A stretch of DNA of 64,000 bases from Haloprofundus salinisoli (GTDB lineage Archaea > Halobacteriota > Halobacteria > Halobacteriales > Haloferacaceae). The stretch is from contig NZ_CP083663.1 of assembly GCF_020097815.1 (NCBI RefSeq), positions 2,108,001 through 2,172,000 on the forward strand. The letters are read 5' to 3'. The notes beneath the pieces are model-generated. The model was not told where the DNA came from and made no database searches. It saw only the letters and a list, made by a program, of their open reading frames with translations. The position numbers were made by a program, and so were the translations under genes. Positions 14,620 to 19,975 of the stretch are shown here, piece by piece (the stretch's first letter is position 1; every line of letters starts with the position of its first letter).

Positions 14620-14994
14620 ATGGCGAAACAGCAGAAGCAGGTTCGCGAACTGCAGGAAGGCAGCTACGTCATGATGGACGACGCCCCGTGTAAGATCAAT
14701 CATTACAGCACCGCCAAACCCGGCAAACACGGCAGCGCGAAGGCCCGCGTCGAGGGACGCGGCGTCTTCGACGGGAAGAAGCGCAGCCTCAGCCAGCCTG
14801 TCGACGCCAAAGTGTGGGTCCCGATCATCGATCGAAAGCAGGGCCAGGTCGTCTCGGTCACCGGCGACGACGCGCAGGTGATGGACCTCGACACCTACGA
14901 GACGTTCACGATGCGTATCCCCGACGGCGAGGACTTCTCCCCCGAGAGCGAAATCGAGTACCTCGAGTACGAGGGCAACCGAAAGGTCGTGTAA
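14620..14994 (+). CDS. eif5A: translation factor aIF5A
   Basis: 124 residues, full archaeal length. It binds the ribosome E site and relieves stalling, for example at polyproline. The SH3-like N-domain carries the modification loop [16 protein letters not shown] with the target Lys near residue 36, which receives deoxyhypusine (hypusine in eukaryotes). The C-domain is an OB fold. The stop shares its last A with the ATG of the agmatinase-like gene (TAATG), so the two are coupled; deoxyhypusine synthase is encoded at 18911-19975. In haloarchaea agmatine has been proposed as the donor for this modification, followed by agmatinase processing, so this linkage is meaningful. Confidence 0.97.
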
Positions 14995-15803
14995 TGTTCC
15001 CCGGGGCGACTGCCGAACGCTGTGACGCGAACTTCGTCATCCTCGGTGCGCCCCTGGACATCTCCACGAGTTTTCAACCGGGGGCCCGTTTCGGCCCCGA
15101 CCGCATCAGACGGTTCGCCGAAACGTTCGACGACTACGACCGTCGAACCGACCAGTTCTTTTCCGATCTCTCAGTGCACGACGCGGGCGACCTCCACGCC
15201 TGGAGCGACGCCGCCGAGTACGTCGAGTTCCTGAGCGGCGAACTCGGCGACGCCGTCCGCGACGACGCCGTTCCCATCACCCTCGGCGGCGAACACACCG
15301 TCACCGCCGCCGGCGTCCGCGCCGTCGACCCGGACGTCTTCGTCTGCCTCGACGCCCACCTCGACCTCAGACGCGAGTACGCCGGCGACGAGTGGAGCCA
15401 CGCCTGCGTCACCAGACGCGTCCTCGACACCGCAGACGAGGCGATTATCCTCGGCGCACGCACCGGATCACCCGACGAGTGGGAACGCGCAGAAAGCGAC
15501 GACGTGACCGTCGTCGCGCCCAAAGACGTCGCCGACTGGGAACCCGCGTTCGACGCCGACGATTCGGTCTACCTGAGCGTCGACATCGACGGGGCGGACC
15601 CCGGCTTCGCGCCCGGGACGGGGACGATGGAGCCGTTCGGACTGACGCCGCGGGAGATGCGCGACGTCGTTCGGGCCGTCGCTCCGACCGCCGACGGCTT
15701 CGACGTCGTCGAGGTGAACGACCGAGACGATGGCCAAGCCGCGTCGCTCGCCGGGAAACTTCTCAAGGAGTTCGTCTACGAGCGCGCGGCGACGGACGAG
15801 TAG
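14994..15803 (+). CDS. speB: agmatinase-like ureohydrolase linked to aIF5A
   Basis: 269 residues, arginase/agmatinase family with a binuclear Mn site. Ligand motifs are present: GGEHTVTAAG (His), VCLDAHLDLR (Asp-His-Asp), and SVDIDGADPGFAPGTGTMEP (Asp-x-Asp and the catalytic Glu region). HACVTRR replaces the agmatinase SHGTMFRR segment and FGLT follows the E-P, so substrate specificity may be shifted, for instance to agmatinyl-modified eIF5A rather than free agmatine. The ATG at 14994 overlaps the eif5A stop by one base. Haloferax work proposed that the homologue trims an agmatine adduct on eIF5A; the fused gene order here agrees. It could also simply make putrescine. Confidence 0.9.
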   Translation: MFPGATAERCDANFVILGAPLDISTSFQPGARFGPDRIRRFAETFDDYDRRTDQFFSDLSVHDAGDLHAWSDAAEYVEFLSGELGDAVRDDAVPITLGGEHTVTAAGVRAVDPDVFVCLDAHLDLRREYAGDEWSHACVTRRVLDTADEAIILGARTGSPDEWERAESDDVTVVAPKDVADWEPAFDADDSVYLSVDIDGADPGFAPGTGTMEPFGLTPREMRDVVRAVAPTADGFDVVEVNDRDDGQAASLAGKLLKEFVYERAATDE

Positions 15804-15872: not shown

Positions 15873-15971
15873 TCAGCGGCGAAGCACGCGTCGCATCTTG
15901 CGCGTGATACTGCGTTTGGTTCGACGCGGTAATCGACGCCAGACGCGAAGCGCACTGCGGAACTTACCCAT
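15873..15971 (-). CDS. 32-residue very basic micro-protein
   Basis: ATG...TGA ORF encoding MGKFRSALRVWRRLPRRTKR followed by SITRKMRRVLRR: about half Arg/Lys and no acidic residue. This is opposite to the acid-rich proteome of a salt-in halophile. Translation is well supported: GAGGTGA (15984-15978) lies six bases before the ATG and matches the anti-Shine-Dalgarno core over seven bases, rare in this window, where most genes look leaderless. A TTATA element at 16025-16021 could drive it. The helix would be amphipathic and cationic, fitting an RNA/ribosome- or membrane-binding peptide, but I recognise no family. Located downstream of the eIF5A/agmatinase genes on the opposite strand. Confidence 0.55.
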   Translation of the reverse strand: MGKFRSALRVWRRLPRRTKRSITRKMRRVLRR

Positions 15972-15977
15972 AGTAAG

Positions 15978-15984
15978 TCACCTC
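15978..15984 (-). promoter_or_regulatory. strong Shine-Dalgarno of the 32-aa ORF
   Basis: GAGGTGA read on the minus strand, six bases from the ATG at 15971. It is complementary to the 16S 3' end and decides the start of the micro-ORF. Confidence 0.6.
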
Positions 15985-16244
15985 GTTTTCGCTCGCGTCA
16001 CACTGTTCGTGAGACAGACGTATAATCGCGGTGGCTGCATTCGCAAGTCGAACTGTGTCTGTCGCCGTCGAGTTACGAGCGCCGACACTCGGTCGCCGAT
16101 AGAGTATACGAACCGCCGCAGGCGACGGTTCGGCGAGCGGTCACAAACGCGACCCGTCGAACGACGAGCGCGACTGGTGGGCGCCGTCGGAGCGGTTCAC
16201 CGACGGCAGCAGTGCGTGCGCCGAACGCGCCGAACGGGACGGAT

Positions 16245-16511
16245 ATGAGGAACGTGACGGACATGACAAACGCGACGAGTACAACGAACCCCACGGCCCT
16301 CGGTGACCGCGCATCGCCCGAGACTCTTGCTCAGAACCGGACGGGGAACGGTTCGAGTAGCGCGGCCCTACTCGGACGAACACAGTCGCGTTGGTCGGGT
16401 CTTTTCGCCGCTACGCGCGCTGCGCTCGTCGCCGTCGGAGCGAGTATCTACGGCCTCGGGATGCTAGCGCAAAGCGACGTCAGAGCGCGACTGCAGGCGG
16501 CGCTCCCGTAG
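16245..16511 (+). CDS. small hypothetical membrane protein
   Basis: 88 residues if started at the ATG at 16245 (a GTG at 16212 would add 11). The N-terminal half is Asn/Thr/Ser-rich (MRNVTDMTNATSTTNPTALG), the C-terminal part contains one hydrophobic segment LFAATRAALVAVGASIYGLG flanked by Arg residues and the tail SDVRARLQAALP. No family recognised. It lies 37 nt upstream of the Nif3 gene on the same strand. Moderate codon bias and a membrane segment support coding, but it could be a spurious frame in a GC-rich gap. Confidence 0.4.
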   Translation: MRNVTDMTNATSTTNPTALGDRASPETLAQNRTGNGSSSAALLGRTQSRWSGLFAATRAALVAVGASIYGLGMLAQSDVRARLQAALP

Positions 16512-16548: not shown

Positions 16549-17316
16549 ATGCGCCTCTCGAAGCTGACCGACCGACTCGACGAGACCCTTCGAACCGACG
16601 CCTACGCGGATATCGACGCGAGCGCGAACGGCCTACAGGTCGGCCCCGACGACGCCGAGATAACTCGGGTCGCCGTCGCCGTAGACGCCGCCGTCGCCAC
16701 CGTCGACGCCGCGGCGGCGGCAGATGCCGACCTCCTCGTCACCCACCACGGACTCTCGTGGGGCGGCATCGAGCGCGTGACCGGCAAGCAGTACCGACGA
16801 ATCGCGCCGCTCGTCGAGAACGACCTGGCGCTGTACGTCTCGCACCTCCCGCTCGACGGTCACCAGGAACTCGGCAACGCCGCCGGAATCGGCGACCTCC
16901 TCGACCTCTCCGAGCGCGAACCGTTCGGAAGCCTCGGGCCCGAGTACATCGGCCAGCGCGGGCGCGCGAGCGAGCCTTTCGACGCGACGGAACTGGCGAC
17001 GACGCTCGACGCCGAACTGGACACGGGCGGCCGCGGCGTCCAGGTGCTCGAGTTCGGCCCCGACGAAATCGAAGACGTCGCCGTCGTCACCGGCAGCGGC
17101 GTCGACTGGCTGGACGAAGCCGTCGACGCCGGTGTCGACGCGCTGGTGACCGGCGAAGGAAAGCAGAAGGCGTACCACGAGGCGCGGGAGGCCGGAATCC
17201 ACGTCTTCTTGGCCGGTCACTACGCGACGGAGACGTTCGGCGTGCGGGCTCTCTCGTCGCGACTCGCCGACTGGGGCGTCGAGACGACGTTCGTCGACCA
17301 CCCGACGGGGCTGTGA
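16549..17316 (+). CDS. Nif3-like dinuclear metal-centre protein
   Basis: 255 residues of the NIF3/YbgI (GTP cyclohydrolase I type 2-like) family, which form toroidal hexamers with a di-metal site on the inner face. Family motifs are visible: ANGLQVGPDD near the start, LLVTHHGLSWGG (two His ligands), SHLPLDGHQELGNAAGIGDLL (His, Asp), and the C-terminal LVTGEGKQKAYHEAREAGIHVFLAGHYATETFGV (His, Glu). It lacks the PII-like insert of longer homologues. Biochemical role in archaea is unsettled; nucleotide or pterin-related hydrolysis has been proposed for relatives. Confidence 0.9.
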   Translation: MRLSKLTDRLDETLRTDAYADIDASANGLQVGPDDAEITRVAVAVDAAVATVDAAAAADADLLVTHHGLSWGGIERVTGKQYRRIAPLVENDLALYVSHLPLDGHQELGNAAGIGDLLDLSEREPFGSLGPEYIGQRGRASEPFDATELATTLDAELDTGGRGVQVLEFGPDEIEDVAVVTGSGVDWLDEAVDAGVDALVTGEGKQKAYHEAREAGIHVFLAGHYATETFGVRALSSRLADWGVETTFVDHPTGL

Positions 17317-18778: not shown

Positions 18779-18910
18779 AAGCGATGGTAGCCGGAGTACA
18801 GTTAAGTCTCTTTAGTGTCGAATAACAGACATTCAACGGCGGTGACTAACCGCGTCGTCGCCCGTCGACGGACCGCGTTATTGAAACGACTTCCCGACGC
18901 ATCGAGAGAT

Positions 18911-19975
18911 ATGAGCGACGACGGACGCGACCACGGAAGCGACGACGGAGATGGCGACGGCCACGCCGAGTACCACCCACCGCACCGCGAGGAGTTCGAC
19001 CACGACCCCGTGGGTCACACCGACGTCCGCGCCGGGATGACCGTCTCGGAACTCGTCGACGAGTACGGGAAGGCGGGTATCGGCGCGGCGGCGGTCCACG
19101 AGGCCGTCGACGTGTACGCCGAGATGTTGGCCGACGACGACTGCACCGTCTTTCTCTCGCTCGCGGGGGCGATGGTGCCGACCGGGATGCGGAAGGTCGT
19201 CTCCGACCTCATCCGCGACGGCCACGTCGACGCGCTGGTGACGACGGGCGCGAACCTCACTCACGACTCCATCGAGGCCATCGGCGGCAAACACCACCAC
19301 GGAACCGAACACGCCGAGGGGAAGACGCCCCGCGAGCACGACGAGACGCTGCGCGACGAGGAGGTCGACCGTATCTACAACGTCTACCTCCCCCAAGAAC
19401 ACTTCGCGCTGTTCGAGTCGCACCTCCGCGCGGAGGTGTTCCCGCCGCTGGAGGAGGAAGGCTCGGTCGGTATCGAACGCCTCTGCCGGGAACTCGGCCG
19501 CGCGAACAGCGAGGTGAACGAGCGCGAGGGTATCGAGGAGGACGCGGGCGTCGCCGCCGCCGCCTACGAGTCGGACGTGCCGATCTACTGCCCGGCCGTC
19601 CAGGACTCGGTGTTCGGCCTGCAGGCGTGGATGTACTCGCAAACGTCGGCGTTCACGCTCGACGCGCTGAAGGACATGACGCCGCTGACGGACCTCGCCT
19701 ACCACGCCGACAGAGCGGGCTGTCTGCTCGTCGGCGGCGGCGTCCCGAAGAACTTCACGCTCCAGACGATGCTCGTCACCCCCGGCGCGTACGACTACGC
19801 GGTCCAGATTACGATGGACCCCGCTTCGACGGGCGGACTCTCGGGCGCGACGCTCGACGAGGCGCGCTCGTGGGGGAAGTTGACGAAGGAAGCGCAGAAC
19901 GTCACCGTGCAGGGCGACGCGACAGTGTACCTGCCGCTGCTCGTCGCGGCGGCGAGAGAGCGAATCGGGAACTGA
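18911..19975 (+). CDS. dys: deoxyhypusine synthase
   Basis: 354 residues. In eukaryotes it transfers the aminobutyl group of spermidine to eIF5A lysine using NAD+; in haloarchaea agmatine has been proposed as donor. Landmarks: VFLSLAGAMVPTGMRKVVSDLIRDGHVDALVTTGANLTHD (NAD-binding), YCPAVQDSVFGLQ, LLVGGGVPKNFTLQ, and the catalytic Lys in SWGKLTKEAQNVTVQGDATVYLPLLVAA. The N-terminus is an acidic His/Asp-rich tail (about 30 residues) before DHDPVGHTDVRAGMTVSELV. The start at 18911 has TTATTG 28-33 nt upstream, fitting leaderless transcription. Encoded 4 kb from its substrate eIF5A and the agmatinase-like gene. Confidence 0.95.
   Translation: MSDDGRDHGSDDGDGDGHAEYHPPHREEFDHDPVGHTDVRAGMTVSELVDEYGKAGIGAAAVHEAVDVYAEMLADDDCTVFLSLAGAMVPTGMRKVVSDLIRDGHVDALVTTGANLTHDSIEAIGGKHHHGTEHAEGKTPREHDETLRDEEVDRIYNVYLPQEHFALFESHLRAEVFPPLEEEGSVGIERLCRELGRANSEVNEREGIEEDAGVAAAAYESDVPIYCPAVQDSVFGLQAWMYSQTSAFTLDALKDMTPLTDLAYHADRAGCLLVGGGVPKNFTLQTMLVTPGAYDYAVQITMDPASTGGLSGATLDEARSWGKLTKEAQNVTVQGDATVYLPLLVAAARERIGN

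Follow-up and report, generated by a model that had tools for sequence, protein, structure and literature searches.

Analysis of a 64,000-nucleotide stretch of the Haloprofundus salinisoli genome (the window, meaning throughout the whole stretch of DNA analysed) revealed a reading frame for a very small, strongly basic protein, and its conservation makes it almost certainly a real gene, one belonging to an accessory haloarchaeal microprotein family. The coding sequence, identified by its open frame and its conservation, lies on the minus strand at 15971..15873, with the ATG at 15971 and the stop ending at 15873, and encodes 32 aa followed by the stop. Its translation, MGKFRSALRVWRRLPRRTKRSITRKMRRVLRR, contains 12 Arg and 3 Lys, so that 15 of 32 residues are basic, and no Asp or Glu, as the first-pass annotation had described for an Arg-rich ORF of this length. 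The check proposed there, conservation with a bias toward synonymous changes, came out clearly positive, with a pN/pS of 0.07 within the genus, and close relatives showed neither a lack of conservation nor stops or frameshifts, the observations that would have spoken against a gene. The frame is short, and 50 ORFs of at least 25 aa overlap these 5 kb, as might be expected of a spurious ORF in GC-rich intergenic DNA, but this highly improbable reading is already refuted by sequence evidence, namely homologues in six families, 22 of 22 frames intact from ATG to stop, and a pN/pS below 1 in all 12 groups. The annotated ORF is therefore a conserved gene with a conserved Shine-Dalgarno (SD) sequence, while the binding of its predicted cationic product to RNA, ribosome or membrane is an expectation that we infer from the sequence.

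The family proved widespread and patchy in its distribution. Matches to the microprotein at E ≤ 4.8e-4 were found in 22 of 99 genomes, the window's own included (next best match, 0.018); these comprised all five genomes of the window's genus, and in every one of the 22 the ATG was at the same place and a stop followed after 31–42 codons. A profile search of the order (391 genomes) gave matches in at least 54 genomes at E ≤ 0.01, with at least 47 strong matches (E ≤ 1.9e-8) in at least 46 of the 391 genomes, distributed over six families (f1, f4, f5, f7, f14 and f17); because up to 19 candidates per genome were scored, these genome counts are lower bounds. Weak profile matches occurred in eight of the 391 genomes, and the two of these eight that were inspected, L229 and L230, were not family members and were both dropped. 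The match in L229 is a long ORF (L229:323-700) with a microprotein-like N-terminus, MGKFGAAWRTIERRLPNRIRKRYVRKFLVV, followed by a membrane-helix-like stretch and a weak, sub-threshold match to a Cache domain; the window's genome (G000) contained no match to the chemoreceptor signalling domain PF00015. A DNA pattern search returned 20 stretches in named records, including Haladaptatus, Halomarina, Halogeometricum, Halegenticoccus, Halalkalicoccus and a Haloarcula, and two of 196 genomes drawn from the whole phylum, order included, gave a match, both from the window's genus. Diverged copies were sought with filters off at 20 loci (16 agmatinase-NIF3 gaps and three agmatinase flanks, all without the gene, and one gap of genome G030), yielding nothing better than E 0.53, and the consensus peptide had no match among 72,556 plasmid and 50,697 phage records.

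Members of the family are 30–42 aa long and share the pattern MGKxRKAxxxWRRLPRxxxRRIxxK. Across 47 distinct peptides the net charge ranged from +11 to +18, and M1, K3, A7, W11, L14, P15 and I22 were constant, the constancy of the Trp and of the Leu-Pro being partly a product of selection by the DNA pattern and peptide filter, which demanded them (59 of 60 loci passed the filter). The ten members recovered only by profile kept W11, P15 and I22, and varied at L14 (Met in L108, Ile in L227) and A7 (Ile in L223 and L225, Val in L228, Thr in L231). Cysteine was absent from the window peptide and from the residues listed at positions 1–30 of the 47 peptides. Among the five members in the window's genus, 51 synonymous versus 10 nonsynonymous differences were counted, summed over the ten pairs, giving the low pN/pS cited above, and the pooled value for the 12 groups was 0.23 (range 0.07–0.53); these comparisons indicate that selection acts at the peptide level. 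Genome G340 carries one Lys-rich peptide, MSKFKTARRLWNRLPSSVKRRIIKKGRKLIRRK, in identical form on two contigs (L116 and L117), in both cases without a SD and away from the aIF5A genes.

Structure prediction with AlphaFold2 gave two helices, spanning residues 3–13 and 16–31 and joined at the Leu-Pro turn, with a pLDDT of 86 and a pTM of 0.38. The two predicted helices are credible; at this pTM any packing of one against the other would be tentative. Hydrophobic moments for the two helices were 0.75 and 0.75 over the 47 distinct peptides, versus 0.40 and 0.37 in shuffles, and hydrophobic residues account for no more than about one in three helix positions.

Comparison with known families returned no convincing relative. 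None of the 20 members searched against Pfam, nor of the four searched against NCBIfam, came near a curated cut-off, and the Pfam search gave no toxin or DUF1127 match. The PDB had no match to the sequence profile at E ≤ 10 and none in a fold search, and the best hit of a single peptide, at E 1, was to the mitochondrial protein mL78. No convincing relative was found among the PHROGs, where PHROG 1213, a RelE-like toxin, was matched by 5 of 20 members with a best E of 0.0024 over 23 residues, corresponding to one helical hairpin at positions 9–31 of 88. Among the open PMC papers listed by literature searches, no title or abstract opening described such a family. Zinc-finger micro-proteins such as HVO_0758 are likewise very small haloarchaeal proteins (PMC10716476, PMC6562870), of less than 70 aa in PMC10716476, but they are built around CxxC motifs, whereas the microprotein has Arg-rich helices and no cysteine. 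The small proteins of the DUF1127 family (PMC12501420) resemble the microprotein in being Arg-rich and often under 50 aa; in contrast to it, they are bacterial, and the Pfam results for the 20 members contained no DUF1127 match.

The leader of the microgene carries the signals that the first-pass annotation had pointed to. Its near-ideal SD, GAGGTGA at 15978..15984 on the minus strand, six bases before the ATG, is present and is a conserved trait of the microgene and not a chance occurrence. This heptamer presumably pairs with the 3′ end of 16S rRNA, for which we take the anti-SD complement to be AGGAGGTGATCC. Matches of at least six bases to this sequence, no more than 22 bases from the start, preceded 35 of 52 members. 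The figure was zero for the 44 NIF3, 35 agmatinase and 40 aIF5A starts in the microgene loci (those alignable to the corresponding protein of the window), and among other ATGs it was 164 of 5445. The Lys-rich members L116–L119 had no SD. The TATA-like element was also located, as TTATA 54 bases before the ATG (16021..16025, minus strand), and it is a probable element of the microgene promoter given the conservation of TTA[A/T]: 33 of 51 members carry it between −46 and −81, and it is absent between −120 and about −82. The stretch from −75 to −45 contained it in 25 of 51 members versus 4.4 in shuffles (maximum 12 over 500 shuffles). Since the element keeps a much steadier distance to the microgene than to NIF3, it most likely serves the microgene.

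Two further features of the leader were considered. A possible stem-loop, GTCTCAC-GAACA-GTGTGAC at 15997..16015 on the minus strand, is uncertain and may in part precede the transcription start; over 34 rows, which are related to one another, the mean z was −0.80 versus +0.12 in control windows (t-test P 0.002), and the window's own z was only −0.36. In addition, ten leader bases of the window, ACGCGAGCGA, have their complement beyond the stop, and across the 52 members own pairs scored 6.87 versus 6.10 for swapped pairs (sd 0.18). This complementarity was dropped as a family trait, the swap test on 24 group representatives giving P values of 0.03, 0.21 and 0.28 for three alternative stretches. 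One locus, L063, has eleven leader bases, AGCCGTTCGCT, exactly complementary to those just after the stop, a feature that is not general in the family.

The microgene is embedded, in the opposite orientation, among plus-strand genes of aIF5A and its modification. The aIF5A gene (14620..14994) directly precedes an agmatinase-like gene of the arginase family (14994..15803), which is the convergent neighbor of the microgene; its divergent neighbor is the NIF3/DUF34 gene (16549..17316), and the deoxyhypusine synthase gene lies beyond (18815..19975 when taken as the longest ORF, though translation may begin at an internal start). Between the microgene and NIF3, on the plus strand at positions 16212–16511 of the window, is an ORF of 99 aa that has a hydrophobic segment close to its C-terminus. 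The annotation was right to place the microgene antisense beside a translation-factor operon, and this orientation holds across families: the microgene usually sits between agmatinase and NIF3, and wherever these are found agmatinase is convergent and NIF3 divergent. Of 52 distinct members, 47 lie no more than 6 kb from at least one of the four genes (NIF3, 42; agmatinase, 40; aIF5A, 39; deoxyhypusine synthase, 38), counted over the available sequence, as some loci are truncated. The same neighbor genes form the Haloferax volcanii cluster HVO_2300, HVO_2299 and HVO_2297, encoding aIF5A, an agmatinase-like protein and deoxyhypusine synthase (PMC5178350), and we infer that HVO_2298, drawn between agmatinase and deoxyhypusine synthase in a figure legend of that paper, is NIF3. 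The passages of that paper on the cluster name no microprotein there. Most of the searched genomes of the order had no match.

Agmatinase and NIF3 positions could be compared for 89 of the 99 genomes, and in 54 of these the two genes were at most 5 kb apart on the same strand. This arrangement was found in 20 of 22 genomes with the microgene versus 34 of 67 without it, one of the two exceptions having an insertion of 16.7 kb and the other a break in the contig. The gap between the two genes was at least 231 bases in all 20 genomes with the microgene and at most 152 bases, that is, mostly closed, in 26 of the 34 without it; G030, which is one of these 20, carries its copy outside the gap, about 5.5 kb past NIF3. 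In G025, G035, G036, G038 and G059 the agmatinase match found by tblastn was split into two query-overlapping pieces around residues 145–171, which suggests, from the alignments, an in-frame insert. Mapping presence and absence onto an 80-row NIF3 tree called for about ten events of gain or loss (9–11 in bootstraps, 19 with shuffled labels). An old gene at one site that was often lost and sometimes moved fits these data best, and spread of the microgene by recombination over its flanks is an admissible alternative history.

How strongly this location ties the peptide to the pathway is limited by two observations. The microgene shares no operon with these translation genes, and five of the 52 copies (L064, L116, L117, L118 and L120) have none of the four genes within 6 kb, which together weaken the link to the aIF5A pathway. 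When nine loci with displaced copies were viewed by eye, L110 and L120, from one genus, shared two neighbors, and otherwise no gene recurred.

For a peptide of this kind, with two charge-rich helices and a constant hydrophobic face, the binding partner could be RNA, an anionic membrane or an acidic protein. Tentatively, we favor an accessory factor that binds RNA or the ribosome, a reading that draws on charge, predicted helices and location, and the translation-factor gene neighborhood is what makes it preferable to the membrane and pathway-partner readings. By this mechanism, the microgene would probably have a promoter of its own, giving a transcript with a short leader, and its translation would probably be initiated at the SD, as the conserved positions of these signals suggest. 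The product would most likely form two short helices meeting at the Leu-Pro turn, strongly basic except for a narrow conserved hydrophobic face on each; the hydrophobic faces would pack together or against a partner, and the Arg/Lys surface would bind structured RNA, most likely on the ribosome. Its role would be that of a dispensable translation accessory in lineages keeping the aIF5A – agmatinase – NIF3 – deoxyhypusine synthase neighborhood. Against this mechanism stand the low pTM, the lack of a shared operon, the five displaced copies, and the lack of a ribosomal relative in the PDB by profile or fold. One protein for comparison is eL41, a tiny basic ribosomal protein that is likewise very short and Arg/Lys-rich; however, the near-universal presence in the clade expected of an eL41-like protein contrasts with the patchy presence observed, and the profile matched no solved ribosome in the PDB. 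The ten or so gains and losses on the NIF3 tree therefore argue that the microprotein is no core part of the ribosome.

A somewhat less probable reading is that the amphipathic, Trp/Arg-rich helices sit along the membrane's inner face, tethering or modulating something there. Haloarchaeal membrane lipids are anionic, W11 is constant, and the weak profile match in L229 (E 1.2e-4) falls on the N-terminus of an ORF in which a basic stretch runs straight into the membrane-helix-like one. That similarity may nevertheless be coincidental, L229 not being a family member, and the sparse hydrophobic positions of the helices include no segment long enough to span a membrane. It is unlikely, though still to be weighed, that the cationic peptide instead binds an acidic neighbor product (agmatinase, deoxyhypusine synthase, aIF5A or NIF3) and modulates the formation of deoxyhypusine, for which basic antizyme-like proteins offer an analogy. 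The proximity of 47 of 52 members to these genes and the closer pairing of agmatinase and NIF3 in genomes with the microgene are consistent with such a regulator, but the transcription units are separate, copies such as L064, L116–L118 and L120 are displaced, most genomes carry the aIF5A-pathway genes without the peptide, and the synteny may mark only the ancestral site.

The last two readings are very improbable. A leader-peptide-like sensor, in which translation of Arg codons reports charged Arg-tRNA and controls a neighboring gene, would suit the 12 Arg in 32 residues and a neighbor acting in arginine-derived agmatine metabolism, but it is already disfavored, as the usual arrangement, with agmatinase convergent and NIF3 divergent, leaves no same-strand downstream target, the most constant positions (K3, W11, P15 and I22) are not Arg, and Lys replaces Arg in L116–L119. 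A ribosome-targeting small toxin, or a RelE-like element in trimmed form, would account for the PHROG 1213 matches, but these cover a single hairpin, the microprotein is too short to hold the rest of the RelE domain, Pfam toxins and PDB profiles gave no match, and the gene occupies a stable chromosomal site with no plasmid or phage copies of the consensus peptide.

In sum, these results describe a conserved family of proteins of about 30 residues beside the essential, still unsettled haloarchaeal pathway of deoxyhypusination from agmatine (PMC5178350). For Haloferax volcanii, PMC3986360 reports that the SD of a native leader failed to drive translation and that long SD motifs are rarer than expected. 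The microgene provides a natural case in which the SD is kept over several families while the neighboring genes have none, making the use of 5′-leader SD sites by haloarchaea directly testable. It is a bolder and rather doubtful proposal that this new family serves aIF5A (deoxyhypusine) modification, or else the ribosome, as a dedicated accessory whose translation is SD-initiated, residing in the aIF5A-modification neighborhood of some lineages, and that haloarchaea may use SD-led initiation from 5′ leaders after all.
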